Shown here in pieces: positions 25,978-63,990 of a stretch of 64,000 nucleotides of DNA (position 1 is the first letter of the stretch; every line of letters begins with the position of its first letter). A model generated the notes under the pieces. It did no database searches. It was not told the origin of the DNA and worked only from the letters and a program-made list of their open reading frames with translations. The stretch spans positions 800,948-864,947 of the forward strand of contig JAMXDE010000026.1 in the NCBI GenBank assembly GCA_026770025.1, given 5' to 3'. The translations under genes and the position numbers were made by a program. Source of the DNA: Craspedostauros australis (Eukaryota > Bacillariophyta > Bacillariophyceae > Mastogloiales > Achnanthaceae).

Positions 25978-26142
25978 TGTCGAAATTCCCCGTAGTCCCA
26001 AAAGTAACGTGCTCCTGTAACGCTCAGGAGTGATCGATCATGCGCTTGCCATGTTAACGGTAGGGGGGTAATTGTTGTTTCTGTACTCTATTCTGGTTTA
26101 GTCCCGTACAATCGGGAATTACTGATGTCACACATTTCGACA
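25978..26142 (-). repeat. solo LTR of a TRIM-like miniature retroelement
   Basis: 165 bp with inverted termini TGTCGAAAT...ATTTCGACA (TG...CA) and a perfect 5-bp duplication GTCAC on both sides (25973-25977, 26143-26147). An inverted copy, about 95% identical by eye, is at 32255-32419, where it is followed by a short internal region and a purine tract. A small LTR with a target duplication and no internal part indicates LTR-LTR recombination. Confidence 0.8.
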
Positions 26143-31639: not shown

Positions 31640-32254
31640 TTGGATGTGATAAGGACAAGATTGGGATGAGGTGGGTGATAAAATAGGAACGTACACTCCA
31701 CGACGCGCTCCACGACAACCTCCACGACAACCTCCACGACACACTGGCATTGATGAGTATTGATGAGCTTGAGCACCTTGAGGCACTAATCCAACATGGA
31801 GTGGAGTGTTGGTACTTTGCTCTGTTCTCTGTTCATTCCGAAGCAGGAACAAGGACAACACGGTGGTTCTGTCAGAGGCTTCCTCGCAGCTGAAGATGTC
31901 GTTGTTGTGGAATACGGAAGATGGGCTGCGCTCCTGCGATCTACTCCTGTGGACATGGACTTCGGCAGCGACTCATCGACTCATCGATCTGGTAGACGCA
32001 GAGGTCTCTGGAGACAGAGATGTCTTCGAACAGGGAACATGTGGTGCACAAAAAGCACATCCAAGCGTTTGGTTTGCCATTTTCGAACTTGTTCATCAAA
32101 CGTCTTCTAACGGTTGTGATCATAAATCCGAAATCAACACACACCATGTCACCACCACAAACCACACAACAACAAGCAAAGGACAACAAAGTCCTCCGTT
32201 CTGTCTCTCAACCGTCTTGGAGCCTCCATCTCCACCAACAGGACATACGACTAG
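31640..32254. other. MATH-BTB 1 downstream region ending in GACTAG target duplication
   Basis: No further gene. It starts with a stretch also found after gene 3: a CCACGAC-type tandem run near 31700-31740, repeated fewer times in gene 3. Similarity to the gene 3 downstream region continues to about 32115. Bases 32249-32254 (GACTAG) recur at 50608-50613 beyond the composite element. Confidence 0.6.
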
Positions 32255-32773
32255 TGTCGAAATGTGTGACATCAGTAATTCCCGATTGTACGGGACTGAA
32301 CCAAAATAGAGTACAGAAACAACAAATACCCCCCTATCGTCAACGTGGCAAGCGCATGATCGATCACTCCTGAGCGTTACAGGAGCACGTTACTTTTGGG
32401 ACTACGGGGAATTTCGACATGGTAACGTAAACCTGTGGCTTACGCCCGGGAGAGCGAAATAGTTGACTGAGGAAGAATCAGACCGGACCAACTTCATGGG
32501 TTCGATACCACCGACACCTGATTTTCCGAAGCAAAAAGATGAACGACGATACAACGAGAAAAAAGTGCAAAGCAACCCGCAGGTGGAACATCGAGACCTG
32601 GGAGGGCGACCGCTTGCATCAGCGGTATACGAAAAAGGAACGTGACAACGGTTTCAAGCAGAGTGCAAGAGAGAAGCTGAAGGCCCAATGACCCCAGAAG
32701 AAGACACACAGAGACAGACAAGCACAACAACCAACCAACCAATCATCGAGTACAAATCGCGAATTAGGGAGGG
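32255..32773 (+). mobile_element. TRIM-like miniature LTR retroelement (5' LTR, PBS-like site, PPT)
   Basis: A 165-bp LTR (32255-32419) is followed directly by TGGTA, the first bases of a common initiator-tRNA primer site. Then come about 350 bp of non-coding internal sequence and a purine tract TTAGGGAGGG ending at 32773. The next LTR (32774) is E4-type rather than a TRIM copy. Both LTR types begin TGTCGAAATGTGTG here. Size and parts fit a terminal-repeat retrotransposon in miniature, which needs an autonomous element's proteins. No coding capacity. Confidence 0.65.
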
Positions 32774-32870
32774 TGTCGAAATGTGTGTACTCGGATGTGT
32801 ATGCATCAGTCACACTTGCGCGCCATCATCCAGAATATTTGGTGGCGGAATCACGACCCAAAACTATGAC
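32774..32870 (+). repeat. E4 5' LTR, first piece
   Basis: 97 bp matching the start of the E4 3' LTR at 50037 (TGTCG[A/G]AATGTGTGTACTCGG), broken at ...ACTATGAC where E5 begins. Confidence 0.88.
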
Positions 32871-33647
32871 TGTTGGAAATCCGGGGTTATAGTAGTAGAC
32901 TAATCTGTTATCAGTCTGTACCGTTTTAGAACTGTGAGCACAACATGCTCATCTCCTTTCGATTCCAATTCACAACAAGCATGATCTGCAGCAGCCACCC
33001 AAGGTTACACCCTTTAGCTTGGCTCCTTTCGTCTGCATCTCCATCTTGCGTTCATCATGGTTCATCGCTTGCTTAGCTGAGAGTTGGAGAGTACCTACAT
33101 TCGTCAAGTTCATACTCGTAGACCTGTAGGTACCTCTCCTTCGGTCTCCTGTCACTTCACTGGTCCCACTTCATTTCAGTTCCTCCCTCCGGTCATCTCG
33201 ATGGTTGCCTTTGGATGCTTGGAACTTATTGTCATCTGGATCGTGGTCTTGGGTGAATAGGGATCGCCTCTGTTTCGCTTTCTCACATTAGGTTCTCAGG
33301 GACGCGTCGACTTGTTCAGATATATTGGTTGTCGCGCTCATTCGATTCACTCAGGGCTGGTGTGTTGCCATCGTCATAGATCTCTCGGTTCCCGACCGTT
33401 ATTGGGACATGGCCGAGTAGGCCACTGGATGAGGGTGCTTGGATGTCGCATAAGACAGGTAAGGCCATTGGGCTGTCCGAGTGCAACTGGTCGATTGCTG
33501 GGTTGCGGTTTGTCTGGGAGATGCTATTGGGGGTTGCGGCAATCATGGGTATCTTTGCACTTAATACCATTCCGGTTCCAGTCAGTCCTCATGGGAGCTG
33601 CGGTAGAATAGGGTATCTTTGCAAAGTCGTACCCCCGATTCCTGACA
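32871..33647 (-). repeat. E5 LTR1
   Basis: 777 bp, plus-strand ends TGTTGGAAATCC...GATTCCTGACA. It serves as 3' LTR of unit 5a. The adjacent purine tract on the minus strand is GGAAGGG. Confidence 0.9.
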
Positions 33648-33743
33648 CCCTTCCATTGTCGCACCACCATACTCACTCACACTCACAAATCATCTCTCGT
33701 CACACTCCCTTGTCTCGCTCTCGCACTCATCTCTTCTGTCCCA

Positions 33744-36700
33744 TTAATCCATGGTCGATCTCAATTGAATGATACTCCCTTTGTGTCTATCGTAGATCTC
33801 CTTCTTTGTGTTCTTCGTGAAGCCGTCTGCGATGTTGTCCTCTGAGCGCACAAATTGAATCCGTGCCTCTCCGTTGTCTATCAGCTCCCGGGTGAAATGA
33901 TGTCGTATATCGATGTGTCTCGTTCGTGCTGATGTAGACGGATTGGAGGCAATGAAGATAGCCCCTACATTGTCCGCATACACATCCACTGGTTTGGTCA
34001 TCGTCAACCCAATGTCCTCCATCAGTTGCGTGAGGAAGCGAATCTCCTTTCCTGCTTCTGATAAGGCGACGTATTCCGCCTCTGTTGAGCTGAGAGTTAC
34101 ACTTCGTTGTGCCTTCGATCTCCATACGATGGGCACCCCTTGCAATAGGACGAGATGTCCCCCGACACTGATCCGGTTATCCTTGTCTCCCGCAAACTCA
34201 CTGTCTGCGTAGATCTCGATCTTCCATGCGTCGTTCTCCAATAGGGTTGGTTGCATTCGTAGCCCGTAGTCCCTCGTGTCCGATACGAACTTCATTACTC
34301 GCAGCATCTCCTTGTATGCAGCAGCTGATGGTCCGTCCAATACTTTGGTAAGCTCACGCACCGCATTCGCAATGTCGGGTCGCGAGTGCTTCACCAAGTA
34401 TAACAGCATACCTACTCCGCTTCGGTATCTGCTGTGTCGGTCACTGTCCACTTTGGGTAGGTCGCTGTTTCTCTGGATACCCTGTCCTGGTGTTCCTGGG
34501 GTTCCGTATCGTTGTAGAGTCAGCACGTCATCCTTGAATGTATCAATGATATTCTTGATGATGTGTGGCTGGTTCACCCAGCAGTTCGACTGGTCGTTGT
34601 TGAAGATGATCTTGCAGCTGAGGTAGTCTTCGAGGTCGTTCTCCACCTTGATTCCGAATTGCTCAGCTTTGATGTCGATCGTCAGTTGCTTCAACTCCCC
34701 CTTTTCTCCTATGCATAGGCAGTCGTCGACGTAGGTGCCTATTAGCAGTAGTCTCCCTTCCTGATTCCGAATCAGAAGGCATGGATCCACTTTGCTCTGC
34801 CGAAATCCCAGCTTGAGTAGAATGTCGACCAGCTTTTTGTTCCATTGTCTGGCGCTCTGCACTAATCCGTAGATGGTCTTCTTGAGCAGTAAGCATTCGT
34901 CGGCCTCATGCCTCATGCCCTTTGGGCATTGCATGTAGATCTCTTCATCGAGTTCTCCATGCAAGAATCCTGTCTCGAAGTCGATGATTATACTATCCAT
35001 GTGCAGCAGCATCTTCATAGTGAGCATGATGCGGTAGGTTGCATCATGAATCACTGGTGCGTGGTGTGCTGAGAAGTCCACTCCCGCGATCTGTGAGTAG
35101 CCGCAGGCGACGAGTCTGGCCCGGAAGACTCCGTTCCTCTTCTCCTTGAATACCCATTTGGTCTTCACGCATCGCCGATCTCTTGGCATTCGGTTCCTCT
35201 TGATCTTCTCCCATACTCCTCTTCTGGTCATATCGTTGAACTCCTTATTGATGGCCTCTCTCCACTTCTTTCTCTTCTCGGGATCTGCATGGTCCCAGCA
35301 TTCTTCGAAAGTGGTAGGGTCTAGCATCATAGCTACGCTTGCTTGTTCGGGTCTGGCTCGATCATTCGTTACTTGGCTCGCAGTGATGAAGTCATCCAGC
35401 CTCATCTTTCCGTGAGTGGTGTCTATCATCATCCCTGCGACGTCTCTGTTGAACATCGACCCGTCTGTATGGAAGTTTGGCCCCTCTGTCGCCGCTGTTT
35501 CGGCTTCTGTCTCTTGGGCTGTCTCTTGCTTCTCATCGTCAGATTCCGATGTCTCGCTGGATCCGTATTCTCTGTCCTCCTTAGCAACAGGCGAATTGTT
35601 ATACCCTGCGAGATCTCTGACCATTCTCGGTACGTATGCAACAGGTGTTGCGACTGGAGTCGAGGGCGGTGCTTTCTCTACCGTTCTTTCCTCACTCCTT
35701 CCATCCTCGTCCCTTCCGGATTCATCGCCGACGTCATCGTCTGGTTTCTGATCCTCCTGGACGGGTAGCAGGTCGTCCTCCTCTAGCGCAGCATCTTCTG
35801 AATCTCCTTGTTCTCCGGTTCTGCTGCGTTGCTCATCGTCATCGGTCTCTATATTGCTCATACTGTCCGATTGACGAAGCCAAGTCACTCCTCTCTCTGG
35901 AGATGAGTCTCTTGATGACGAGTCGTCGTCCGCGTTCATTACTCTGGATATATTGGCATCCTTGATACCCTTGAACTCTCCATACGACTTATTCAACCAT
36001 GTTACGTCTCGAGTCATTAGGATTCTCAAGGTAGCAAGGTTCATCATGCGGTACACTCCTTTCGCGTGCGACTCTCCGTATCCCACGAACATGGCAGGTT
36101 TGGAACGGTTGTCTAGCTTGGCCTTGATAGTCTGTCCACCGATGTGTACCATCCCCATTTCACCGAACACACGCAGGTCATTTGCATACTTCGGGATTTT
36201 TCCGTTTAAGAGTATACACGCTGGTTCCCTTGACTTCGTGCCAATGATGTTCTCCAGCTGCGTCGCCGTGTGAGCAGCCTCTGCCCACAGTTTGCCTCGC
36301 GTTGTTTTTGGTAGATGGGTTTGGTTCAGCATGGCGCGTACTTTGCCGTAGAGTGTCGCGAATTTCCTTTCGACGCGACCGTTTTGTTGCGGGGTCGATG
36401 CGGCAGTGTACTCGAAGGTTGGGGCGAATCCCCTGTTAAGTAAGAGTTTCTCTGTGGAACGATTCTCTCCTGCATTGTCACATCTGACATTTTGAACCGT
36501 TACTCGCTGATTCGCCTGGAGCCATTGGAACAACAAGAGCATCTTCGACCCCACGTCGCTTTTCTCTGCGACGAAGTAACTCCAGCAGTAGTCGCTATAA
36601 TCGTCGACCACAAGAAGCCAGTATTTGCCCCTTCCCAGGCTGTGTGTCTGGACGCTTGATGTATCCATGAACAATCGATCCCCGACTCCTTTCGCTCGTT

Positions 36701-36938
36701 GTTGAGTCGATTTCGACATCGGTCTCTGTCGCGATTTCCCAATCGCGCAGTCAACACACACGTTCAGTTTTCCTGTCACGTTCCAGCCGTACCTCCCTGC
36801 TGTTCGAGAGATGGTGTACGCGTCAACGTGACCTAACTTTTTATGAATTGTGTTGATGTCGACTGGTGCGTCGGTCGACACACCAACATGAGCTTGGTCG
36901 TCGGCCTTGGCGTTGCTCACCATGTTCACTCCGCACAC
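33744..36938 (-). CDS. E5a Pol (IN-RT-RNase H, no protease)
   Basis: A 1064-codon ORF overlapping the gag ORF by 98 bp in another frame (+1 relative to gag). It opens just before the integrase zinc region (HKKLGHVDAY, then CVDC). The integrase core shows FMDTSSV, RCDNAGEN and QQNGRVERKFA. RT has YVDDCLCIGE near residue 737. RNase H has YADSEFAGD and TLSSTEAEYVALSEAGKE near 950. It ends with the DGFTKN tail common to E3 and E4. No DSGA protease motif occurs in this ORF or in the gag ORF. Confidence 0.88.
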   Translation of the reverse strand: MCGVNMVSNAKADDQAHVGVSTDAPVDINTIHKKLGHVDAYTISRTAGRYGWNVTGKLNVCVDCAIGKSRQRPMSKSTQQRAKGVGDRLFMDTSSVQTHSLGRGKYWLLVVDDYSDYCWSYFVAEKSDVGSKMLLLFQWLQANQRVTVQNVRCDNAGENRSTEKLLLNRGFAPTFEYTAASTPQQNGRVERKFATLYGKVRAMLNQTHLPKTTRGKLWAEAAHTATQLENIIGTKSREPACILLNGKIPKYANDLRVFGEMGMVHIGGQTIKAKLDNRSKPAMFVGYGESHAKGVYRMMNLATLRILMTRDVTWLNKSYGEFKGIKDANISRVMNADDDSSSRDSSPERGVTWLRQSDSMSNIETDDDEQRSRTGEQGDSEDAALEEDDLLPVQEDQKPDDDVGDESGRDEDGRSEERTVEKAPPSTPVATPVAYVPRMVRDLAGYNNSPVAKEDREYGSSETSESDDEKQETAQETEAETAATEGPNFHTDGSMFNRDVAGMMIDTTHGKMRLDDFITASQVTNDRARPEQASVAMMLDPTTFEECWDHADPEKRKKWREAINKEFNDMTRRGVWEKIKRNRMPRDRRCVKTKWVFKEKRNGVFRARLVACGYSQIAGVDFSAHHAPVIHDATYRIMLTMKMLLHMDSIIIDFETGFLHGELDEEIYMQCPKGMRHEADECLLLKKTIYGLVQSARQWNKKLVDILLKLGFRQSKVDPCLLIRNQEGRLLLIGTYVDDCLCIGEKGELKQLTIDIKAEQFGIKVENDLEDYLSCKIIFNNDQSNCWVNQPHIIKNIIDTFKDDVLTLQRYGTPGTPGQGIQRNSDLPKVDSDRHSRYRSGVGMLLYLVKHSRPDIANAVRELTKVLDGPSAAAYKEMLRVMKFVSDTRDYGLRMQPTLLENDAWKIEIYADSEFAGDKDNRISVGGHLVLLQGVPIVWRSKAQRSVTLSSTEAEYVALSEAGKEIRFLTQLMEDIGLTMTKPVDVYADNVGAIFIASNPSTSARTRHIDIRHHFTRELIDNGEARIQFVRSEDNIADGFTKNTKKEIYDRHKGSIIQLRSTMD

Positions 36939-38304
36939 GAATCCGCTCTGGGTTGCTCATCTTGTTGTTGACGTTGTGTGGTCTCAAAGAAAGAATGGGA
37001 GATGTGTCAGTCTGTTCGATAATGGCTGCAAAAGCGACGTCCTCCAATACCTTGGAGTCAGCTTGGTGGTTGCTGTCGTTGTCGCGTGTTTTCGCCTCGC
37101 CTGTGTTCACAGACAAGTTGGTCACATTTTCCAATTCGTTCATGTTTCTCGAGGTGGGCACACAAATTAATTCGTCTGTCATCACAAGAGCTACGTCGTT
37201 ATTTCCCTCCATCCCATCAGTTGCCACATTAGCCGAGTCTGCCTCTTTCATGGCTGCCTTCAGCTTGAAGCACTGTAGGATCTTGTGTCCCTTCTTACCG
37301 CAGTACTTACACTCCCCATTGAACTTGGGCTTGCTGTTGTTGACTCCTTGGCCACTCTTCTTGTTCTTGCCGTTGTCTTTCTTGGGGGCGGAGCGGCAGT
37401 CTGCTTTCTTGTGCCCGTAGGCACCACAGTTGCGGCAGTGACCTTTGAAGCCTCCTACTGCAGCGAATGCAGTCTCTTCCCTGTTACTGTTGTTCTCACG
37501 TCTGTTGCCGCCGAGTTTGAGGTATCGGCCGTCGTAGGTGGCACTGACAGCCTCGCGGATGTCTTCGAGGGTCATGGTATCCTCCATACCGTCGAACTTG
37601 AGCTCCAAGAGCTTCACGTCCGTCTCGTATTCCCTTCCGAGGGCGTTGAGTACGAGCATGTGGTACTGTTGCATATCTATCTTGATACCAGTACTACCGA
37701 GGCGATTACGCAGCACTTCCATCTCGGTCAGGAACGTGTCTGGGTGTTCGCCTTTCTTCAACCGCATCCCGTTGAGTTGAGCCAACAACTTTGCCTTGAT
37801 AGGCGCGGTACGTTGCTCGTAGATGCGCTCAAGGGCCTTCCACGCCTTGCGTGGGTCTCCACTCTCAGTGGGCCCGCCCTTGGTTCCCACCACAGCCATG
37901 AAGGCGACATTGCCTTCTGTAGTTTCATGGTTGATCGCCATGGCCAGTTCTTCAAACGCGCACTTAGCCAGCCCATTCTTGTATACCTCCTTCTCCTCAG
38001 CAGTCATCGAGGCTATCTTCTTCGCGATAGACTCACCCTCTTCGATCTTCACATCGGAGATGAGGGCGCTGGGGCCGAAGGGAGCTGGCTTCACCTCCAC
38101 CTTGTCTAGATCCATGAGATACAGGTCCTCAAGGCCCCTGCCCGCGGCGCGAGCTAGGAATTTGATGCTCCAACCTGTCCAGCTGGAACGCTTGCCGTCG
38201 AAGATAACGACGCGGTCGTTCTTGCGGAGATAGGAGCTCATGGTGGTGTGGTGGTGGTGATGTTTGTTGCTGTGTTGGTGGGTGATGGAAACGTTGGATT
38301 TCAA
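36841..38304 (-). CDS. E5a Gag
   Basis: 487 codons from the first ATG; a better start is the ATG at 38241 (MSSYLRKNDRVV), because the preceding His-rich stretch is leader-like. The UBN2-type Gag domain spans about residues 30-265 (DPRKAWKALERIYEQ). Two CCHC knuckles follow: CRNCGAYGHKKADC (about 288) and CKYCGKKGHKILQC (about 332). The last roughly 30 residues overlap pol and are Arg/Gln-rich, so they may be out-of-frame tail. The protein is identical to the 5b Gag. Confidence 0.88.
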   Translation of the reverse strand: MKSNVSITHQHSNKHHHHHTTMSSYLRKNDRVVIFDGKRSSWTGWSIKFLARAAGRGLEDLYLMDLDKVEVKPAPFGPSALISDVKIEEGESIAKKIASMTAEEKEVYKNGLAKCAFEELAMAINHETTEGNVAFMAVVGTKGGPTESGDPRKAWKALERIYEQRTAPIKAKLLAQLNGMRLKKGEHPDTFLTEMEVLRNRLGSTGIKIDMQQYHMLVLNALGREYETDVKLLELKFDGMEDTMTLEDIREAVSATYDGRYLKLGGNRRENNSNREETAFAAVGGFKGHCRNCGAYGHKKADCRSAPKKDNGKNKKSGQGVNNSKPKFNGECKYCGKKGHKILQCFKLKAAMKEADSANVATDGMEGNNDVALVMTDELICVPTSRNMNELENVTNLSVNTGEAKTRDNDSNHQADSKVLEDVAFAAIIEQTDTSPILSLRPHNVNNKMSNPERIRVRSEHGEQRQGRRPSSCWCVDRRTSRHQHNS

Positions 38305-38323
38305 TCGTAATCGTTTCGAAACG

Positions 38324-39099
38324 TGTTGGAAATCCGGGGTTATAGTAGTAGACTAATCTGTTATCAGTCTGTACCGTTTTAGAACTGTGAGCACAACATG
38401 CTCATCTCCTTTCGATTCCAATTTCACAACAAGCATGATCTGCAGTAGCCACTCGAGGTCACACCCTTTAGCTTGGCTCCTTTCGTCTGCATCTTCATCT
38501 TGCTTTCATCGTGGTTCATCGCTTGCTTAGCTGAGGATTGGAGAGTACCTACATTCGTCAAGTTCATACTCGTAGACCTGTAGGTACCTCTCCTTCGGTC
38601 TCCTGTCACCTCACTGGTCCCATTTCATTTCAGTTCCTCCCTCCGGTCATCTCGATGGTTGCCTTTGGATGTTTGGAACTTATCGTCCGGATCGTGGTCT
38701 TGGGTGAATAGGGATCGCCTCTGTTTCGCTTTCTCACATTAGGTTCTCAGGGACGCGTCGACTTGTTCAGATATATTGGTTGTCGCGCTCATTCGATTCA
38801 CTCATGGGCTGGTGTGTTGCCATCCTCATAGATCTCTCCGTTCCCGACCGTTATCGGGACATGGCCGAGTAGGCCACTGGATGAGGGTGCTTGGATGTCG
38901 CATAAGACAGGTAAGGCCATTGGGCTGTCCGAGTGCAACTGGTCGATTGCTGGGTTGCGGTTTGTCTGGGAGATGCTATTGGGGGTTGCGGCAATCATGG
39001 GTATCTTTGCACTTAATACCATTCCGGTTCCAGTCAGTCCTCATGGGAGCTGCGGTAGAATAAGGTATATTTGCAAAGTCGTACCCCCGATTCCTGACA
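38324..39099 (-). repeat. E5 LTR2 (shared between units 5a and 5b)
   Basis: 776 bp; 5' LTR of 5a and the left end of 5b. It carries variants not in LTR1/LTR3. On its left the palindrome CGTTTCGAAACG (38312-38323) abuts it. On its right there is no purine tract; LTR sequence is joined straight to pol codons. Confidence 0.9.
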
Positions 39100-40650
39100 G
39101 AAGTCATCCAGCCTCATCTTTCCGTGAGTGGTATCAATCATCATGCCTGCGACGTCTCTGTTGAACATCGACCCGTCTGTGTGGAAGCTAGGTCCCCCTG
39201 TCGCCGCTGTTTCGGCTTCTGTCTCTTGGGCAGTCTCTTGTTTCTCATCGTCGGATTCGGAGGTCTCGCTGGATCCGTAGTCTCTATCCTCCTTAGGAAC
39301 GGGCGAGTTGTTGTACCCTGCGAGATCTCTGACCAACCTTGGTACGTACGCAACAGGTGTTGCGACTGGAGTTGAGGGCGGGTCTTTTTTTACCGTTCTT
39401 TCCTCACTCCTTTCGTCCTCGTCCCTTCCGGATTCATCCCCGACGTCATCGTCTGGTTCCTGATCCTCTTGGACGGGTAGCAGGTCGTCCTGGTCTAGCG
39501 CGGCTTCCTCTGTATCGCCTTGTTCTTTGGTTCTGCTGCGCTGGTCATCGTCATCGGTCTCTATATCATTCATACTATTCGATTGACGAAGCCAAGTCAC
39601 TCCTCTCTCTGGAGACGAGTCTCTTGATGAGGAGTCGTCGTCTGAGTTCATCACTCTGGATCTGTTGGCATCCTTGATACCCTTGAACTCTCCATACAAC
39701 TTATTCAACCATGTTACGTCTCGAGTCATTAGGATTCTCGAGGTAGCAAGGTTCATCATGCGGTACACTCCTTTCGCGTGCGACTGTCCGTATCCCACGA
39801 ACATGGCAGGTTTGGAGCGGTCGTCTAGCTTGGCCTTGATAGCCTGTCCACCGATGTGTACCATCCCCATCTCACCGAACACACGCAGGTCATTTGCATA
39901 CTTCGGGATTTTTCCGTTTAACAGTATACACGCTGGCTCCCTTGACTTCGTGCCAATGATGTTCTCCAGCTGCGTAGCTGTGTGAGCAGCCTCTGCCCAC
40001 AGTTTGCCTCGCGTTGTTTTTGGTAGATGGGTTTGGTTCAGCATGGCGCGTACTTTGCCGTAGAGTGTCGCGAATTTCCTTTCGACGCGACCGTTCTGTT
40101 GGGGAGTCGATGCCGCAGTGTACTCGAAGGTTGGGGCGAATCCCTTGTTAAGTAAGAGTTTCTCTGTAGAACGATTCTCTCCTGCGTTGTCACATCTGAC
40201 ATTTTGAACCGTTACTCGCTGATTCGCCTGGAGCCATTGGAACAACAAAAGCATCTTCGACCCCACGTCGCTTTTCTCTGTGATGAAGTAACTCCAGCAG
40301 TAGTCGCTATAATCGTCGATCACAAGAAGCCAGTATTTGCCCCTTCCCAGGCTGTGTGTCTGAACACTTGATGTATCCATGAACAATCGATCCCCGACTC
40401 CTTTCGCTCGTTGTTGAGTCGATTTCGACATCGGTCTCTGTCGCGATTTCCCAATCGCGCAGTCAACACACACGTTCAGTTTTCCTGTCACGTTCCAGCC
40501 GTACCTCCCTGCTGTTCGAGAGATGGTGTACGCGTCAACGTGACCTAACTTTTTATGAATTGTGTTGATGTCGACTGGTGCGTCGGTCGACACACCAACA
40601 TGAGCTTGGTCGTCGGCCTTGGCGTTGCTCACCATGTTCACTCCGCACAC
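39034..40650 (-). pseudogene. E5b Pol, truncated (integrase only)
   Basis: 538 codons. Residues 1-517 match 5a Pol (integrase and acidic linker) with scattered changes, for example VIDDYSDYCWSYFITE against VVDDYSDYCWSYFVAE. At 39100/39099 the frame enters LTR2 and ends after 21 LTR-encoded residues (CQESGVRL...). RT, RNase H and the purine tract are missing. Corresponding sequence in 5a continues at about 35390. The unit cannot replicate by itself. Confidence 0.88.
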
Positions 40651-42016
40651 GAATCCGCTCTGGGTTGCTCATCTTGTTGTTGACGTTGTGTGGTCTCAAA
40701 GAAAGAATGGGAGATGTGTCAGTCTGTTCGATAATGGCTGCAAAAGCGACGTCCTCCAATACCTTGGAGTCAGCTTGGTGGTTGCTGTCGTTGTCGCGTG
40801 TTTTCGCCTCGCCTGTGTTCACAGACAAGTTGGTCACATTTTCCAATTCGTTCATGTTTCTCGAGGTGGGCACACAAATTAATTCGTCTGTCATCACAAG
40901 AGCTACGTCGTTATTTCCCTCCATCCCATCAGTTGCCACATTAGCCGAGTCTGCCTCTTTCATGGCTGCCTTCAGCTTGAAGCACTGTAGGATCTTGTGT
41001 CCCTTCTTACCGCAGTACTTACACTCCCCATTGAACTTGGGCTTGCTGTTGTTGACTCCTTGGCCACTCTTCTTGTTCTTGCCGTTGTCTTTCTTGGGGG
41101 CGGAGCGGCAGTCTGCTTTCTTGTGCCCGTAGGCACCACAGTTGCGGCAGTGACCTTTGAAGCCTCCTACTGCAGCGAATGCAGTCTCTTCCCTGTTACT
41201 GTTGTTCTCACGTCTGTTGCCGCCGAGTTTGAGGTATCGGCCGTCGTAGGTGGCACTGACAGCCTCGCGGATGTCTTCGAGGGTCATGGTATCCTCCATA
41301 CCGTCGAACTTGAGCTCCAAGAGCTTCACGTCCGTCTCGTATTCCCTTCCGAGGGCGTTGAGTACGAGCATGTGGTACTGTTGCATATCTATCTTGATAC
41401 CAGTACTACCGAGGCGATTACGCAGCACTTCCATCTCGGTCAGGAACGTGTCTGGGTGTTCGCCTTTCTTCAACCGCATCCCGTTGAGTTGAGCCAACAA
41501 CTTTGCCTTGATAGGCGCGGTACGTTGCTCGTAGATGCGCTCAAGGGCCTTCCACGCCTTGCGTGGGTCTCCACTCTCAGTGGGCCCGCCCTTGGTTCCC
41601 ACCACAGCCATGAAGGCGACATTGCCTTCTGTAGTTTCATGGTTGATCGCCATGGCCAGTTCTTCAAACGCGCACTTAGCCAGCCCATTCTTGTATACCT
41701 CCTTCTCCTCAGCAGTCATCGAGGCTATCTTCTTCGCGATAGACTCACCCTCTTCGATCTTCACATCGGAGATGAGGGCGCTGGGGCCGAAGGGAGCTGG
41801 CTTCACCTCCACCTTGTCTAGATCCATGAGATACAGGTCCTCAAGGCCCCTGCCCGCGGCGCGAGCTAGGAATTTGATGCTCCAACCTGTCCAGCTGGAA
41901 CGCTTGCCGTCGAAGATAACGACGCGGTCGTTCTTGCGGAGATAGGAGCTCATGGTGGTGTGGTGGTGGTGGTGTTTGTTGCTGTGTTGGTGGGTGATGG
42001 AAACGTTGGATTTCAA
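40553..42016 (-). CDS. E5b Gag
   Basis: 487 codons, identical in protein to the 5a Gag. The DNA appears identical over about 1.4 kb apart from a change near the start (the His repeat, about 41960) and one base in the leader. Same zinc knuckles and likely start at 41953 (MSSYLRK). It overlaps the truncated pol by 98 bp in the same +1 arrangement as 5a. It could still supply Gag. Confidence 0.87.
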   Translation of the reverse strand: MKSNVSITHQHSNKHHHHHTTMSSYLRKNDRVVIFDGKRSSWTGWSIKFLARAAGRGLEDLYLMDLDKVEVKPAPFGPSALISDVKIEEGESIAKKIASMTAEEKEVYKNGLAKCAFEELAMAINHETTEGNVAFMAVVGTKGGPTESGDPRKAWKALERIYEQRTAPIKAKLLAQLNGMRLKKGEHPDTFLTEMEVLRNRLGSTGIKIDMQQYHMLVLNALGREYETDVKLLELKFDGMEDTMTLEDIREAVSATYDGRYLKLGGNRRENNSNREETAFAAVGGFKGHCRNCGAYGHKKADCRSAPKKDNGKNKKSGQGVNNSKPKFNGECKYCGKKGHKILQCFKLKAAMKEADSANVATDGMEGNNDVALVMTDELICVPTSRNMNELENVTNLSVNTGEAKTRDNDSNHQADSKVLEDVAFAAIIEQTDTSPILSLRPHNVNNKMSNPERIRVRSEHGEQRQGRRPSSCWCVDRRTSRHQHNS

Positions 42017-42034
42017 TCGTAACGTTTCGAAACG

Positions 42035-42812
42035 TGTTGGAAATCCGGGGTTATAGTAGTAGACTAATCTGTTATCAGTCTGTACCGTTTTAGAACTGTG
42101 AGCACAACATGCTCATCTCCTTTCGATTCCAATTCACAACAAGCATGATCTGCAGCAGCCACCCAAGGTTACACCCTTTAGCTTGGCTCCTTTCGTCTGC
42201 ATCTCCATCTTGCGTTCATCATGGTTCATCGCTTGCTTAGCTGAGAGTTGGAGAGTACCTACATTCGTCAAGTTCATACTCGTAGACCTGTAGGTACCTC
42301 TCCTTCGGTCTCCTGTCACTTCACTGGTCCCACTTCATTTCAGTTCCTCCCTCCGGTCATCTCGATGGTTGCCTTTGGATGCTTGGAACTTATTGTCATC
42401 TGGATCGTGGTCTTGGGTGAATAGGGATCGCCTCTGTTTCGCTTTCTCACATTAGGTTCTCAGGGACGCGTCGACTTGTTCAGATATATTGGTTGTCGCG
42501 CTCATTCGATTCACTCATGGGCTGGTGTGTTGCCATCGTCATAGATCTCTCGGTTCCCGACCGTTATTGGGACATGGCCGAGTAGGCCACTGGATGAGGG
42601 TGCTTGGATGTCGCATAAGACAGGTAAGGCCATTGGGCTGTCCGAGTGCAACTGGTCGATTGCTGGGTTGCGGTTTGTCTGGGAGATGCTATTGGGGGTT
42701 GCGGCAATCATGGGTATCTTTGCACTTAATACCATTCCGGTTCCAGTCAGTCCTCATGGGAGCTGCGGTAGAATAGGGTATCTTTGCAAAGTCGTACCCC
42801 CGATTCCTGACA
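42035..42812 (-). repeat. E5 LTR3
   Basis: 778 bp, outer 5' LTR of the array. It is followed on the left by CGTTTCGAAACG (42023-42034) and on the right by the TGAC duplication and the rest of the E4 LTR. Closest to LTR1. Confidence 0.9.
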
Positions 42813-43287
42813 TGACATCACAGGAATACCACCGCAATACCACGAGGATACCGCGATACTACGACAGCAGGATACCGCGATACCAGCGGATACCACAGTA
42901 TCCATCACACGTGACGTCACATTGAGACCTTAACTACCAGGTCTACAGGAATGAAATATGTTGTGAATATTCCATCAGATTCGATCAATCATCAGATTCA
43001 ACAAAACCTGAGAACGGAACAACGACGAGACAACGAGAGAGAAACGACAACGTTGACAATGAAGTCAACATCAACGAGCAACATGAGAGCAATGTGCATG
43101 AAGGTGCAAGAGGATTGCACCAAGCAATGAGAGCAGGGAAGAGATGGATCAAGAGAGCATCTTGATCATCTCATTTCCCCACGCTCGCTCACCAACAATC
43201 AATAGCAACAACAGTAACAGTAACAGAAACACTTTCGACAAAGAGTGTTGACTACTACCGATTCTCCGTGCGCGGAGCCTTCCAACA
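42813..43287 (+). repeat. E4 5' LTR, second piece
   Basis: Matches the remainder of the 3' LTR (from about 50133 to 50607), ending CCTTCCAACA. It contains GATACC-type short repeats and an intact TGACGTCA at 42912-42919. It is followed by the palindrome CGTTTATAAACG (43288-43299). Confidence 0.88.
42912..42919. promoter_or_regulatory. CRE-like palindrome TGACGTCA in E4 LTR
   Basis: Perfect 8-bp bZIP/CREB site in the 5' LTR; the 3' LTR has TGATGTCA at this place. A second site position, TGACGTCA at 50133-50140 in the 3' LTR, is the point where E5 broke the 5' LTR. In diatoms CRE-type sites are known in CO2/cAMP-responsive promoters; a role here is inference. Confidence 0.4.
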
Positions 43288-43344
43288 CGTTTATAAACGT
43301 TAGCACCAGGGAAGCCCTGTGCAAGGAGAGATCGAAGAGCAAGA

Positions 43345-43590
43345 GACGCTGCATGAGTGACGAGCGAGAGACGAGCTAGCATACCCTCTCACACCGGTGA
43401 TCGAGGACGAAACGAAGAGCGCAAGGCGCTGAATGAGCAGAAGAGACTGAAGTGGCAGAATACCCTCTCACGCGCGTGATCGAGGACGAGACGAGAAGCG
43501 AGACGAGCGCTGAATGAGCGAAGAAACAGAAGAGACTGTATTCCCTCTCACACCAGTGATCGAGGACGAGACCGAGGGAGACGAGGAAGA
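43345..43590 (+). repeat. E4 leader: three about 80-bp direct repeats running into gag
   Basis: The motif CCCTCTCAC...GTGATCGAGGACGA recurs near 43384, 43463 and 43543. The third copy lies inside gag, encoding PLTPVIEDE. Each copy also has an ATGAG just upstream of it, so the gag start region has been triplicated. Upstream ATGs could affect translation. Confidence 0.7.
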
Positions 43591-46500
43591 GACTCCGAAC
43601 CTCACGCGAGAAGGAGCGGGTGCGCCCATCCAACAACCAAGCGCTCAGCAAGGAGCCATCATCGAAACGGAAGCAGAGCAAGCTGCACGAAGAGCCGGCG
43701 GAGAGACGCGGCAGAGAGACCAGCCGAGACCGACATCGGCATCAACAGAGCCACCCATATCGACTCCATCACAGCGAGTGTTCAAAGTGGAAGCGTACGA
43801 GACAGAAGTACAGCAGACGGAAACAGAAGGCAGGGGTAGCGCGTCAGAGAGAGACAGTGGCATCGATCCCCTCGTATCCAACGACAACGAAGAAGAAGAG
43901 AGAGAAGAGAGCCAATCGACAGGCGGCACACAAGACACGAGCAAGCAGACAACAACGAGAAAGAAGATGACGAAGGACACGTACAAGAGGCGCAAGGCCC
44001 CACTCTTCAGCGGGAAGAAGGAAGACTACAACGCGTGGGAATCGCAGGCAAAGGCTTACGCGCGTACGCAGCGATTCAAGGCCATCATGATGGGAGAGAA
44101 GCCCATCCCAACGAAAGAAGACATCGAGAAAGAGAGTGATGAAGAGAAGAGGGAGGCCCTCGAAGAGACGCGCGAACTGGCGCTGGACTGCTTCAGCGAT
44201 CTGATCCTGATGATGGATGCAGAGCAAGGCACTGGAAAGCAGGCGATCCAGCTGATCAATCAATGCTGCGACGAGCAGAACCCCGAGGGGAACCCAGCTG
44301 CAGCATGGAAGATGCTGAAGGAGAAGTACCAGCCGACCGACGCATCCACGGTGCTGCGACTGAAGCGCCAATTCAACACCGAGCGCATGGTGAGGGATAC
44401 GGATCCTGACATCTACGTCACACGGCTTGAGCTGCTCCGCACTCGCCTCCAAGATGTGAAATACGAGATCAGCGAGAGAGAGCTGATCATGCAAGTACTC
44501 AGCAGCCTCAGCAAGGACTACGACGACGAAGTGAGCAACTTCGAATACCAACTGCAGATGGGTCCAGAGAAGGTGACGATCGAGGCCATCCGGAATGTGC
44601 TGAACTACAGATACTCCAAGCTCCAAGGCGGAAAGGCGTACGTGGACGACTTCGCGGATACTGGCAGCAAGCGCGACGACGCGGCGATGGCTGCGACAGG
44701 CGGATTCAAGGGCAACTGCCACAACTGCGGAAAGTACGGCCATCGGTCTGCGAATTGTCCAGACAGAAAGCAAGCGGCCGACAACAACAACAACAACCAC
44801 CAATCCAACAACGGCCGACGAGGAGGCTACAACAACAGAGGCAACAGAAGAGGAGATCAGCGCGGCAATCAAGGAAACCGCGGCAACAGAGGAAGAGGTC
44901 GAGGCAACGGCTTCAGCGGGAAGTGCCATTACTGTGGCATCCCAGGACATCGAGAGGCAGACTGCAGGAAGAAAAAGTTCAACGAAAAGAGAAAGCAGGA
45001 AGAGCAAGGAAGCACGGCGCAAGACGGCGCCGATGATAGATTCGAGATGGTGATGACCATGCTCGACACACCCACACAAACTCACACTGCCTACGCCGTC
45101 GATGATTCATTCTTTGATACCTTCCAACACCGTCCAGGAATAGACGAGGTCCACGACGACACGAGCATCTCAGAATGGCTCAACGACGGACCAATCATTC
45201 ACGAGGTGACGCTCGACAACGAACCTCGATTTGATCTCGATTTCGATTACTGCCTCAACACGCACGACTTGCCGAGCAACGGCAACCGAGAAGAAGACCC
45301 CGAGGAGGATATCGATATCCTCGCCATGGAAGAAGCCGGGGAGCCCCCGATTGAGCAAGACATGCTCCTGGACGACAATCTCTTCGAAGAGACATCAGCT
45401 GCTGGCTCCGCCGAAGAAGAGATCGCTCAAGATGACGGAGATGACAACAGCAACGCAACTCGTCCACTATACGTCCGGAACAGATTCCGTCCTCCCAGAC
45501 CAGAAGGTCAACGAGTCCTTAACCACCACGAAGACGTGATCTTCCCAACCGGCCTACGCTTCGGGCCCACGGACTTCTTCAACCAACGAGGGGCGCACGG
45601 CAGGCACGACACTGTGCCGTACCCAACATTCACGGCCGAGATCAGACAACGCAAACTGATCGGCAACGCCATCCTCAACGCGGCCTGCAATCTATTCCCG
45701 AACAACCGACGTATCCAGATGGCATTCGTCGGACGAGTGTCAGGAATGTTCATCATGGCAGAGCTTCTGTCAATCGAAGAGATCCTGGCAAACAGCATGA
45801 TTCTTAACAGGATCCTCGAGCGCCACGGCCAACCACCACTGAGCATCATGGAGCGGCACTTCATCCTCGGAGGATGCATGGCGGCACTTCTTCACCACCG
45901 ACCACAGGAAAGGCGACCTGAGCCACCGCGACAGGCAAGACCGGAGCCGCCACAGCAAGCGGAACCAATGCGCCCTCCAATCAATTGGGACGATTCCAGC
46001 ACGGGTGAGTCATCCGACGACGACGACTCCTCCTATGACGACGAGTTGGCAATCATGGTTGTGGATCGCACGCGCTTTCGTGCATCCAACCATCACACCG
46101 ACACACCCGATCAACACACATGGCTCGCCGACAGTGGAGCCTCATGCCACATTGTGAATTCGGACAAGGGGATGTTCAACATCCGCCACATCCAATCCTT
46201 TGTGAAGGTCGGTGACAACACGCAACTCAACTCACCAAAGATGGGATCCATCTATCTCCGAGTGAAGCAACGCGACAACACACAGCGCACCATCAGACTG
46301 AACGACGTCAAGTTCGCGCCCAAGATGTGGGTGAATCTGTTCTCAACGAACAAGGCGCTGGAGAATGGATACCAGATCGGCAACAACGGTATCATCATGG
46401 ACATCGCGAACGGCAACGGGAACAAGATCGTGTTCGATCGAGTGTTCCGCACGCGAAATGGTTTCGTGACTGGCGTGCAGATGCATGCAGTCAAGCCACG

Positions 46501-47584
46501 CACAGACATCACGGCTGCGGCCGTCACATCGGATCCACCAAAGGGAATCAACGCGTCCACACTCCATCGCATGTTGGGACACGCCCCACTTGAGGCAATG
46601 CAACGAACCGCATCGCACCACGGATGGAACATCGTCGGCACCATGCCGCCATGCAAGCACTGTGCCATCGCCAACGCACGAGTGAAGAACGTCCCGAAGG
46701 CGACCATCGCGAGAGCATCGCGACGATGTGAGCGATTCTTCATCGACATCAGCTACACAAAGCACACGAGCTTCGGAAACAAGCGGTACTGGGTGTTGAT
46801 CGTAGACGACCACACAGATTACTGCTGGAGCATCTTCCTCACCAACAAGGGTGACCAACCGGCCTTCCTGAAGCGATTCCTTCAGAAGATCCGTCCGCAC
46901 ACCGACGGCAAACCAATCATCTTTCGCGGAGACAACAGCGGAGAGAACAAGGCATCGGAGGCCCATCTGCTCGAAGCCGGATTCGACGTCTCATTCGAAT
47001 ACACGGCATCCAACACACCACAACAGAACGGCAGGGTCGAGCGCAAGTTTGCATACTTGTACACGAAGATGCGATCCATGCTGAACGGCGCCCAGCTCAA
47101 CGAAGAGCACAGACACGGTCTATGGGCTGCAGCAGCCAACGTCGCGACCGCGGTCGCCAACATCACCGTGGCGAAGGGACAGACCAAGTCGCCACACAAC
47201 CTATTCTTTGGAGAGGATCCGAAGTACGCGAGCGGACTCCGTACCTTCGGCGAAGTCGGAGTCGTCAAGACGGCCTATGGAGGCATGACAGCGAAACTCC
47301 AGAACAGAGGCGAGGCGATGTTGTTCGTCGGATATGCTCCACAGCATGGATCCGGCGTCTACAATATGTACCGTCCATCCACCAAGTCCATCATCTGCAC
47401 CAGAGACGTGAAGTGGCTCAACAGATCGTACGGGCACTTCAAGGGTTGGACCTACGGCTCGGACGATGGGAAGCCGGAAGGGAGTCAGATTGTCGCAACT
47501 GACGCCGAGCACCCAACGGAGACTGACGATGATGGATTCATCCTGGTCGGAAGGGAAGGGACAGCACCGTCCCACACAGCTTGA
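43514..47584 (+). CDS. E4 Gag-PR-IN polyprotein (first part of gag-pol)
   Basis: 1356 codons starting MSEETEETVFPL. Gag domain about 140-380 (AWESQAKAYARTQ), zinc knuckles CHNCGKYGHRSANC (about 402) and CHYCGIPGHREADC (about 473), Asn/Arg-rich spacer between them. Protease DSGAS at 873. Integrase: LHRMLGHAPLE (about 1017), FIDISYTKH (about 1076), RGDNSGEN (about 1139), NGRVERKFA (about 1173). It stops at TGA 47582-47584. The next ORF (47606) and the last one (49661) are in the same frame, so this was one gag-pol frame now cut by two TGA codons. Gag and protease share a frame here, unlike E3. Confidence 0.9.
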   Translation: MSEETEETVFPLTPVIEDETEGDEEETPNLTREGAGAPIQQPSAQQGAIIETEAEQAARRAGGETRQRDQPRPTSASTEPPISTPSQRVFKVEAYETEVQQTETEGRGSASERDSGIDPLVSNDNEEEEREESQSTGGTQDTSKQTTTRKKMTKDTYKRRKAPLFSGKKEDYNAWESQAKAYARTQRFKAIMMGEKPIPTKEDIEKESDEEKREALEETRELALDCFSDLILMMDAEQGTGKQAIQLINQCCDEQNPEGNPAAAWKMLKEKYQPTDASTVLRLKRQFNTERMVRDTDPDIYVTRLELLRTRLQDVKYEISERELIMQVLSSLSKDYDDEVSNFEYQLQMGPEKVTIEAIRNVLNYRYSKLQGGKAYVDDFADTGSKRDDAAMAATGGFKGNCHNCGKYGHRSANCPDRKQAADNNNNNHQSNNGRRGGYNNRGNRRGDQRGNQGNRGNRGRGRGNGFSGKCHYCGIPGHREADCRKKKFNEKRKQEEQGSTAQDGADDRFEMVMTMLDTPTQTHTAYAVDDSFFDTFQHRPGIDEVHDDTSISEWLNDGPIIHEVTLDNEPRFDLDFDYCLNTHDLPSNGNREEDPEEDIDILAMEEAGEPPIEQDMLLDDNLFEETSAAGSAEEEIAQDDGDDNSNATRPLYVRNRFRPPRPEGQRVLNHHEDVIFPTGLRFGPTDFFNQRGAHGRHDTVPYPTFTAEIRQRKLIGNAILNAACNLFPNNRRIQMAFVGRVSGMFIMAELLSIEEILANSMILNRILERHGQPPLSIMERHFILGGCMAALLHHRPQERRPEPPRQARPEPPQQAEPMRPPINWDDSSTGESSDDDDSSYDDELAIMVVDRTRFRASNHHTDTPDQHTWLADSGASCHIVNSDKGMFNIRHIQSFVKVGDNTQLNSPKMGSIYLRVKQRDNTQRTIRLNDVKFAPKMWVNLFSTNKALENGYQIGNNGIIMDIANGNGNKIVFDRVFRTRNGFVTGVQMHAVKPRTDITAAAVTSDPPKGINASTLHRMLGHAPLEAMQRTASHHGWNIVGTMPPCKHCAIANARVKNVPKATIARASRRCERFFIDISYTKHTSFGNKRYWVLIVDDHTDYCWSIFLTNKGDQPAFLKRFLQKIRPHTDGKPIIFRGDNSGENKASEAHLLEAGFDVSFEYTASNTPQQNGRVERKFAYLYTKMRSMLNGAQLNEEHRHGLWAAAANVATAVANITVAKGQTKSPHNLFFGEDPKYASGLRTFGEVGVVKTAYGGMTAKLQNRGEAMLFVGYAPQHGSGVYNMYRPSTKSIICTRDVKWLNRSYGHFKGWTYGSDDGKPEGSQIVATDAEHPTETDDDGFILVGREGTAPSHTA

Positions 47585-47605
47585 ACCAAGCCAAAGCGAC
47601 GCTCC

Positions 47606-49639
47606 GTGTCATTCGCCGACGCGAATTCCTACCACGTCCTCTCAGATGACGACGATGAGGACGATGACGACACCAACAACAACACGAGTGCGAAGGAGGA
47701 CTCACCAGGTCTCGCGAGCGAGACGGCGACCACACCAGTGGACGAAGGGACTGCGTCCGAAGAAGAGGTTGACGCGATCCCTGTCGACGACAACACAGTG
47801 ACCGACATTGAAGATGTCGCCCCACCGAGTGTCCCGCCAAGCATCCTCCGCACTCCGCCAACATCACGCAAGCGTTCGCACGAAGCGAACGATGATTCGA
47901 AAGCTAGTCGCACCACGACAGCTGATCCCCCAAAACGACCAAGCAAGCGCGATACCACTCGCAGCGAACGACAACAGCAATACATCGAGCGAAGCAAGCA
48001 TCAAGCAAAAACAAATGCGAAGTCGCGTGCATCGCTGCCATCCAACGTGAAAGGAAAGAGCGAATTGCGCAACCTTGCGAACTACAACAAGCCAGGAAAG
48101 AAAGAGAAGCATGAAGGCAAGCGGTTCACTACAAACCTATCCGTCTTCAATAGGGGAAGCGACACCGACGACGACAAGAGCAACACAGACCACGATCAGG
48201 ACAGCAGCGAGGAGGCCAACGACGATGACGAAACCAATGGCGACACCACCGACGAGAATGAGGAGAACAACGAAGCTACGGACGACAAAGACAGCGATTC
48301 TCCTCCATCAGATATCACCAACGCAGTCACAGATGCTCTATTCGGTAACAACGCAATCAGCACCGACGACTTCGAGATAGAGATCTGCGCAACCACCCAA
48401 GATGAGACAGGAGAGACATCGACGCACATCGAGCCATCAACCTTCGACCAAGCATTCAACCATCCGAATGCAACACACCGGAAGGGCTACAGAGCTGCCA
48501 TCGCAAAGGAGTTCAGTTCGATGGATGCTCGATCCGTCTACAGCAAGATCAAGCGCTCATCGATTCCAAGGGACCGCAGATGCTGCAAGTGCAAATGGGT
48601 GTTTAAATTAAAGCGCAATGGAACCTATCGAGCGCGTCTGGTGGTGTGTGGCTACTCGCAGATCGCAGGAGTGGACTACCAAGAGCACCACTCGCCTGTC
48701 ATCCACGATGTCACGTACCGTGTGATGATGGTGATCATGATGCTGCAGAAGATGGACTGCGCACTCGTGGACGTCGTCACGGCATTCTTGTACGGCGACC
48801 TCGAAGAAGAGGTGTACATGAATTGTCCAAGCGGAATGGACAGCACACCGGATGAAGCGCTGCTGCTACACAAGCCAATCTACGGGCTGGTCCAGAGCGC
48901 ACGCCAGTGGTACAAGATGCTGGTGTCAACACTAAAGGGAATGCGATTCGACCAGAGCGCGGCGGATCCGTGTCTCTTCCATCGCAAGACGAAGAACGAA
49001 ACAGTCATCGTGGCGATCTACGTTGACGACTGCTTCTGCTGCGGACATCAGAAGGCACTCGAACAATTCATGGTGGACATCCAGAAGAGCAAGTTCAAGG
49101 TCACCATCGAGAAGGGTTTGGGTGACTACCTCAGCTGCAACATCCAGCTCAACGCAGACAAGACGAGAGCCGTCCTACGCCAGCCACATCTGATCCGAAA
49201 CCTGATCACCGAGTTTGGTGCAGAGGTGGAGAAGATGCAGCGCTACGCGACGCCAGGGACGCCAAGCCAGAGCATCGTTCGCCCATCCGAAGAGAACGGA
49301 TTGCAGAAGGTAGGTGCAGCAGAGCATGCTGACTATCGCAAGGGAGTGGGAATGCTTCTTTTCTTAATCAAGCATTCACGTCCCGACATCGCCAACCCTG
49401 TCAGAGAGCTGACGAAGGTACTCGACGGACCGACCAAGGCTGCAACCAAGGAGATGCGGCGTATCATCAAATACGTCATCGACACGAAGCACTACGGTCT
49501 GAAGATCCATCCCGTCATGACAGACAACAGCGCATGGAACATGGAGATGTTCTGCGACAGCGAATACGCCGGAGACAAGGACACTCGCATCAGTGTCGGC
49601 GGATTCATTCTCTACCTCTGTCAAGTCCCTATCCTCTGA
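47606..49639 (+). pseudogene. E4 Pol, RT part, ending at an in-frame TGA
   Basis: 677 codons in the same frame as the upstream ORF. An acidic/Ser linker (to about 270) is followed by RT (AAIAKEFSSMDARSVY, WVFKLKRNGTYRARLV, YVDDCFCCG at about 471, SRPDIANPVRELTK) and the start of RNase H (FCDSEYAGDKD). It ends at TGA 49637-49639, directly after VPIL. E3 has Trp (TGG) at this position, so a G-to-A change explains the stop. Confidence 0.88.
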
Positions 49640-50017
49640 CGATCCAAGGCGCAGAAGGCAGTGACACTCAGTTCATCAGAGGCAGAGTACATCGCGCTAT
49701 CCGAAGCGACGAAGGAGATCTTCTTTGTGATGCAACTCCTGGAGAGTGTGGGAGCGCCAGTGAAGACTCCAATCACCGTGAGAGTTGACAATGTTGGAGC
49801 CATCTTCATCGCGAAGAATCCCTCAACATCGCAACGCTCCCGCCATATCGACGTACGCCATCATTACGTCCGCAACATGGTGAATGACAAGCTGATCGAA
49901 ATCATCTTCGTCAAATCAGAGAACAACCGAAGCGACGGCTTCACGAAGAACATCAAGTCGGAGCTACAGCGCGAGCACGAGAAGTCCTACCTACACACTG
50001 GCGACAGCAGCGAATGA
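49640..50017 (+). pseudogene. E4 Pol, RNase H C-terminal part
   Basis: Continuation in the same frame after the TGA. The first ATG ORF starts at 49661 per reading, with TLSSSEAEYIALSEATKEIFF, VRVDNVGAIFIAKNP, RHIDVRHHYVRNM and a DGFTKN tail; ends at 50017. Without readthrough of the TGA this segment would not be made as part of Pol. Confidence 0.85.
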
Positions 50018-50036
50018 CTGACGCCTACAGGAAGGG

Positions 50037-50607
50037 TGTCGGAATGTGTGTACTCGGATGTGTATGCATCAGTCACACTTGCTTGCCGCCATCATCCAGA
50101 ATATTTGGTGGCGGAATCACGACCCAAAACTATGACGTCACAGGGATACCATCGCTGTACCACGAAGACACCGCGATACTACGACACGAGGATACCGCGA
50201 TACCAGCGGATACCACAGTATCCATCACACGTGATGTCACATCGAGACCTTAACTACCAGGTCTACAGGAATGAAATATGTTGTGAATATTCCATCAGAT
50301 TCGATCAATCATCAGATTCAACAAAACCCGAGAATGGAACAACGACGAGACAACGAGAGAGAAACGACAACGTTGACGATGAAGTCAACATCAACGAGCA
50401 ACATGAGAGCAATGTGCATGAAGGTGCAAGAGGATTGCACCAAGCAATGAGAGCAAGGAAGAGATGGATCAAGAGAGCATCTTGATCATCTCATTTCCCC
50501 ACGCTCGCTCACCAACAATCAATAGCAACAACAGTAACAGTAACAGAAACACTTTCGACAAAGAGTGTTGACTACTACCGATTCTCCGTGCGCGGAGCCT
50601 TCCAACA
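50037..50607 (+). repeat. E4 3' LTR
   Basis: 571 bp, TGTCGGAATG...CCTTCCAACA, preceded by the AGGAAGGG tract and followed by GACTAG (50608-50613), which equals 32249-32254. It includes TGACGTCA (50133-50140) and a GATACC-rich stretch (50145-50220). Confidence 0.92.
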
Positions 50608-50919
50608 GACTAGTTGACACTCTTCCCTCAGTGGCAGGGGATGCCGAGATCTGTTCCGTTCTCGCTGCCTCTCTTGGCTCCACGAGACGAAGCTCTTCGT
50701 TTGTTGTGACATTGAGGATAGCTCGTAGTCGTACGGATGTTGTGATTGCCACACTCACCGTCACTCTGGTGCGATACGAGTCGGGACATCCATTGAGCCT
50801 CTTCCTCCACAACCAAACCAATACGCAGCCATCATATCATATCATATGATACTTGCAAAACAGGAATCAATCCGGGACGATCGCCTGCGCTGGCGGTAAC
50901 ACACAGAGTTGGTTCATCC

Positions 50920-63684: not shown

Positions 63685-63990
63685 TTAGGGTTAGGGTTAG
63701 GGTTAGGGTTAGGGTTAGGGTTAGGGTTAGGGTTAGGGTTAGGGTTAGGGTTAGGGTTAGGGTTAGGGTTAGGGTTAGGGTTAGGGTTAGGGTTAGGGTT
63801 AGGGTTAGGGTTAGGGTTAGGGTTAGGGTTAGGGTTAGGGTTAGGGTTAGGGTTAGGGTTAGGGTTAGGGTTAGGGTTAGGGTTAGGGTTAGGGTTAGGG
63901 TTAGGGTTAGGGTTAGGGTTAGGGTTAGGGTTAGGGTTAGGGTTAGGGTTAGGGTTAGGGTTAGGGTTAGGGTTAGGGTTAGGGTTAGGG
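63685..63990 (+). repeat. telomere, 51 units of TTAGGG
   Basis: An uninterrupted run of TTAGGG, G-rich strand pointing right, preceded by CGGG. It marks the right chromosome end. The final ten bases (TTGGGTGAGG) depart from the repeat and are probably a read or assembly end. The 114-codon Arg-Val repeat ORF across it is a translation artefact. Confidence 0.97.

Follow-up and report, generated by a model that had tools for sequence, protein, structure and literature searches.

In the window (the whole stretch of Craspedostauros australis DNA that was analysed, 64,000 nucleotides), a TRIM unit and a copia-type element, E4, form one composite block of 18.35 kb that occupies a single target site, is joined at a junction unique in the assembly and carries a mosaic E4 5' LTR. 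The best explanation, which we regard as moderately probable, is that a TRIM cDNA and an E4 cDNA were fused as DNA before integration and then entered the genome in one event.

Structure and target site of the block

The window forms the terminal part of contig C24 (assembly of 74.8 Mb, 90 contigs), and the contig terminus is a telomere repeat, (GGGTTA)n, with 53 copies at positions 63682-64000. The block opens with an intact TRIM LTR start and closes with an intact E4 LTR end, as expected of substrates for an integrase (Table 1). The LTRs of E4 are 568 bases (5', nested insert removed) and 571 bases (3') long. The 5' LTR is interrupted by a 9.9-kb nested copia element, E5, a point absent from the initial annotation; much of the 18.35-kb block is thus a later insert.

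Table 1. Features of the composite block, in positions of the window
Feature	Position	Strand	Remarks
Left target-site duplication copy, GACTAG	32249..32254	.	Single copy at two empty paralogous sites on C31
TRIM 5' LTR	32255..32419	+	165 bases, TGTCGAAAT...ATTTCGACA; ends set by 8 complete two-LTR copies
TRIM internal region	32420..32773	+	354 bases; terminal purine tract AGGGAGGG at 32766-32773
E4 5' LTR, first part	32774..32870	+	LTR positions 1-97; opens with the 14 bases common to the TRIM LTR
Nested copia element E5	32871..42812	-	Later, three-LTR composite, within the E4 5' LTR
E4 5' LTR, second part	42813..43287	+	TGAC at 42813-42816 repeats 32867-32870
E4 internal region	43288..50036	+	Copia type; purine tract AGGAAGGG at 50029-50036
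E4 3' LTR	50037..50607	+	571 bases, TGTCGGAATG...CCTTCCAACA
Right target-site duplication copy, GACTAG	50608..50613	.	

The initial annotation had read the block as one integration flanked by GACTAG. Exact copies of this hexamer stand directly against the left end (TGTCGAAATGTGTG...) and directly after the right end (...CCTTCCAACA), and the chance of a 6-base match at two fixed positions is about 1 in 4,096. Neither unit alone has matching flanks, as had been claimed: the TRIM purine tract lies to the left of the E4 LTR and E4 lies to the right of the TRIM body, and separate duplications of the two units were not seen at the block. Two paralogues of both flanks were found on contig C31, identical to the joined 600 bases at 526 of 596 and 505 of 598 positions. 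The sequence at both is ACATAC-GACTAG-TTGACAC, with a single GACTAG; at each site the matches to the two flanks share exactly 6 bases, and nothing extra lies between the flanks. Because the C31 sites are paralogues, they show the preinsertion state of a duplicated segment and not an allele. An empty site lacking GACTAG would have spoken against the annotated reading, and both paralogues carry the hexamer. The single GACTAG at two empty sites, together with the 6-base duplication, indicates that the whole block sits in one target site, and to this extent the initial reading was upheld.

Six bases were the usual duplication length for both families. Duplications of this length flank all eight complete TRIM copies, six of seven E4 LTR pairs (L059/L056 mismatched) and, among the 29 E4 loci compared, five of seven solo LTRs (L058 and L068 mismatched). 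An element of a second copia family, E6, has CGCGTC on both sides on contig C13 (read by eye).

The TRIM-E4 junction and candidate partners of the TRIM

At the junction, the TRIM tract AGGGAGGG leads directly into an E4-type LTR and not into a TRIM LTR, as the initial annotation had noticed. The junction falls exactly at the LTR start, within sequence common to both families: 14 bases, TGTCGAAATGTGTG, or 18 if the final AGGG of both purine tracts is counted. Over these 14 bases the LTR starts, reported as identical, agree fully when the TRIM LTR is set against the E4 5' LTR; against the E4 3' LTR the match falls to 13 of 14, with G at position 6. The TRIM internal region has 12 occurrences in the assembly (13 rows, since one copy is split); it runs into a TRIM LTR at 11 of them and into an E4 LTR in the window copy alone. 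The E4-type junction pattern, with up to 3 mismatches, occurred at 31 places, 30 with the E4 tract AGGAAGGG and one with the TRIM tract. A joint purine-tract/LTR pattern gave 43 places (30 E4, 10 TRIM-TRIM, 2 E6 and 1 TRIM-E4), and among these 43 junctions none had the E4 tract ahead of a TRIM LTR. The genome search for further TRIM-E4 junctions thus returned only the one in the window, and one such composite was found in the assembly.

The TRIM family comprises eight complete copies, with LTRs of 165 bases (166 in one) and internal regions of 354 to 357 bases. Two short direct LTRs around a short internal region, with a target-site duplication, are the features by which the unit is recognised as a TRIM. 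The 354-base internal region is too small for retrotransposon proteins, and no open reading frame of at least 230 amino acids (the threshold used) was found in the window copy. The purine tract is present, and the LTR is followed by a putative primer site, TGGTAACGTAAACC, the start of which resembles a primer site; Rfam and tRNA searches of the TRIM gave no match. In the TRIM search, 40 of 57 candidates were scored. An autonomous element bearing the TRIM signals (the LTR end and the bases after it, with 3 mismatches allowed) was sought by pattern matching and was not present among the 12 matches, which were 11 TRIM copies and one 3-mismatch match on contig C43; the reversed control gave one match.

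Two candidates on contig C7 were examined and rejected. The pair of TRIM-type LTRs lying 7,371 bases apart (L085, C7:1658500-1666200) had the appearance of a long autonomous relative; it is a repeated segment with a solo LTR. Two identical 300-base stretches each contain a TRIM-type LTR, the identity starts 78 bases outside the LTR, and the locus has no long coding frame. A TRIM longer by 1.24 kb, considered as an ancestor, owes its extra length to an inserted element: this copy (L018/L038, C7:1609352-1611277) carries a 1,237-base insert whose ends are perfect inverted repeats of 40 bases or more, together with a CTG duplication of 3 bases. Elsewhere, loci L002, L003 and L007 have TRIM-like LTRs 84 to 85% identical to that of the window, inside longer repeated segments; they are either an older TRIM subfamily or copies spread through segmental duplication. 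A solo TRIM-type LTR, 96.4% identical to the TRIM 5' LTR, lies on the minus strand of the window at 25978-26142.

E4 contains a copia gag (Retrotran_gag_2, 5.1e-13) and an RVT_2 reverse transcriptase (2.2e-40) between its LTRs, which assigns it to the Ty1/copia type, together with Pol_BBD, SH3_retrovirus and zf-CCHC domains; the integrase core domain gave no match at E <= 0.001. Its coding region was read as two open reading frames, 43514-47584 and 47606-49639, both ending in stops. In the E4 LTR search, 40 of 123 candidates were scored. E6 (L008 on C2; L086/L087 on C13), whose LTR measures about 574 bases and occurs in two identical copies, is approximately 76% identical to E4 (L008, over 1.5 kb up to the 3' LTR start), and its LTR opens with exactly the 14 bases of the TRIM. 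Directly after the 5' LTR, E4 (at 43288), E2, E5 and E6 have a palindromic CGTTTATAAACG or CGTTTCGAAACG and no TGG-type primer site.

The initial annotation had presumed E4 to be the autonomous partner of the TRIM. The common LTR start, 7 of 8 purine-tract bases, the 6-base duplications and the fusion itself speak for this role, which is nevertheless unproven, since E6 shares the 14-base start equally and the TRIM differs from E4, as it does from E6, at the LTR 3' end (TTTCGACA in the TRIM and TTCCAACA in E4) and in the bases after the LTR, where the primer site would lie (TGGTAACG and CGTTTATAAACG). Beyond the LTR start, no above-chance similarity was found between the TRIM and E4. A partner as described in the part of the plant TRIM survey consulted (PMC4717578) shares LTR and internal cis sequences with its TRIM, whereas the likeness here consists of the LTR start (13 to 14 of 14 bases) and 7 of 8 bases of the purine tract. 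Because the 14-base start is common to E4 and E6, it belongs to the clade, and the candidates number at least two, E4 among them. The proposed link between the TRIM and a mobiliser therefore stands at the level of a copia clade and not for E4 itself. Such a link bears on a general question, since for the majority of TRIM families no autonomous partner is known: in the same part of that survey, 278 of 289 TRIM subfamilies were without a related coding element.

Mosaic LTR and origin of the composite

LTRs were compared across 29 E4 loci (L040-L068), with L001 added in the mosaic analysis and the diverged relative L004 left out; subfamily 2 of E4 was defined after inspection of the alignment. 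Between the 5' and 3' LTRs of the window E4, 20 of 568 bases are different. For comparison, the six E4 pairs flanked by matching duplications showed 0, 0, 2, 0, 1 and 2 differences, and the unmatched pair showed 4. Three of the 20 differences are private to the 5' LTR and 2 to the 3' LTR, while 15 are common to other E4 copies; they are concentrated in columns 1-152 (max-chi-square permutation, p = 0.0024). With only 5 of 20 private and an excess in the first 152 columns, two E4 sources met at this locus. Seven columns between 47 and 120 have a subfamily-2 state seen in no more than 2 of 22 other copies, and the 5' LTR has this state at six of them; its first 97 bases are identical to locus L001. 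Both window LTRs have T at column 459, found in 0 of 30 other copies, thereby indicating that the remainder of the 5' LTR belongs with the window E4. The right edge of the exchanged tract is poorly placed, because no state beyond column 152 is rare outside subfamily 2. A subfamily-2-like patch is also present in the E4 3' LTR (columns 61-88), so mosaic LTRs are not peculiar to the fusion event and exchange is frequent in the E4 family. The A at position 6 of the 5' LTR was considered as a TRIM-derived footprint and rejected: A stands there in L001, the nearest E4 relative, and in 7 of 77 other E4-type starts as well (7 of 8 subfamily-2 copies have G), and the base therefore fails to place the crossover.

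The sequence of events that we consider moderately probable is as follows. A TRIM cDNA and an E4 cDNA would have been joined within the 14-base stretch common to the LTR starts (18 bases when the purine-tract end is included), giving a fused linear DNA bounded by a TRIM LTR on the left and an E4 LTR on the right. An integrase would then have put this DNA into one site ahead of a MATH-BTB gene, with duplication of GACTAG. To form the join, two double-stranded cDNAs could have crossed over, or the E4 minus strand could have been extended along the TRIM plus strand; the 3' end of the E4 minus strand is complementary to the start of the TRIM 3' LTR, and the extension would presumably act like overlap extension. 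By an additional exchange, another E4 subfamily would have contributed a tract of at least about 100 bases beside the junction, and the nested copia element would have split the composite later. The private changes (3 in 519 bases of the TRIM body; 3 and 2 in about 570 bases of the two E4 LTRs) are similar in number, which makes the ages of the TRIM and E4 compatible with one date, a comparison of little power.

The initial annotation had proposed template switching, and the outer LTRs argue against this origin at the RNA level. Ordinary reverse transcription of a chimeric RNA gives alike outer LTRs, whereas those of the block are a 165-base TRIM LTR and a 571-base E4 LTR, at chance similarity past the first 14 bases; the structure therefore requires either a join at the level of cDNA or DNA or a subsequent recombination into a resident E4. 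Switching between copackaged TRIM and E4 RNAs, as in the Triticeae complexes, would account for the single duplication around a three-LTR structure by a mechanism described in PMC1950507; we consider it improbable, since it survives only with a second, late switch, that is, as the extension variant of the cDNA fusion. The main rival is later recombination, in which E4 came first to GACTAG and TRIM DNA was subsequently recombined at the 14 shared bases of its 5' LTR start, as a 519-base one-LTR circle through a single crossover or as linear cDNA through gene conversion. Here, too, the parts would stand in the observed order inside one duplication, and the TRIM unit would consist of exactly one LTR and its internal region, 519 bases in all; the E4 5' LTR is mosaic beside the junction, as gene conversion would leave it. 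However, it requires an exchange within merely 14 to 18 bases in a chromosome. In addition, a resident E4 with G at position 6 would leave G in one junction copy and both copies have A, a weak argument because an L001-type E4 has A. On balance, later recombination appears rather unlikely.

An assembly artefact at the junction would fit the repeat-rich subtelomeric setting, where E4 and the TRIM are repeated and telomere repeats end the contig 13 kb away, and would also fit the uniqueness of the junction; it is very improbable, since a false join must produce both a matching 6-base duplication and the exact empty-site sequence. Least credible of all are two neighbouring independent insertions fused later by LTR-LTR recombination. 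This is the commonest origin of three-LTR complexes according to PMC1950507, but it would give no matching outer duplication, and here the duplication matches and the empty sites are clean.

The composite fits neither class of three-LTR complex described in PMC1950507 (Sabot and Schulman 2007), in which template-switching complexes have alike outer LTRs with a duplication and LTR-LTR recombinants have unlike outer LTRs without one. It resembles template-switching complexes in its three LTRs, two internal regions, matching duplication and single integration; those complexes, however, have highly alike outer LTRs and two units of one family, whereas here the outer LTRs come from different families and one unit is a TRIM. 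With the recombinant complexes of Devos et al. 2002 (via PMC1950507), it shares unlike outer LTRs and a middle LTR common to two units; those complexes lack the matching outer duplication that is present here. Tandemly arrayed TRIMs of plants, in the part of PMC4717578 consulted, also have TRIM units joined via a shared LTR, sometimes with duplications on the outer sides, but they join TRIM to TRIM within one family and not a TRIM to a coding copia element. New Onsen insertions, as described in the portion of PMC5668417 used here, likewise have LTRs derived from more than one family member; in contrast, they arise by within-family exchange during reverse transcription, with no third LTR or TRIM partner. 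VejuL and BARE2 are cited in PMC1950507 as apparently made by jumps between different packaged RNAs. The composite thus represents a three-LTR class with a single duplication and unlike outer LTRs. Our literature search found no case of a TRIM/autonomous chimera with one duplication, though a published case may exist.

Within the reading of fusion before integration, the source of the enzymes can be proposed tentatively. Copia-clade machinery may have processed the TRIM inside a shared particle or nucleus, with E4 minus-strand ends, after a switch to a second E4 template, being extended onto TRIM DNA and the resulting unlike-LTR cDNA being integrated; we consider this possible, with doubts that prevail. 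If so, a TRIM U3 end and an E4 U5 end can serve as a pair for a copia-clade integrase, and the conserved 14-base start of E4, E6 and the TRIM would be the recognition end. One integration with a TRIM end and a copia end would be physical evidence of contact between the two DNAs and of one integrase able to act on both ends, evidence that is independent of overall sequence similarity.

The nested E5 element and the neighbouring gene

The nested element E5 came later than the formation of the composite and has three LTRs of its own. Its outer LTRs differ by 0 substitutions, and the middle LTR (38324-39099) is 97% alike. One of its units is truncated and joined exactly to an LTR start (GATGACTTC directly followed by TGTCAGGAATC), with no visible microhomology, and the flanks of the element have the 4-base TGAC repeat only. 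E5 resembles the template-switching complexes of PMC1950507.

The flanks of the block belong to a MATH-BTB gene family, with three protein matches, all from the diatom Craspedostauros and the best 79% identical. The open reading frame of the neighbouring MATH-BTB gene (50920-52383) starts 307 bases past the insert, and the insertion may lie in the promoter or 5' leader of this gene.
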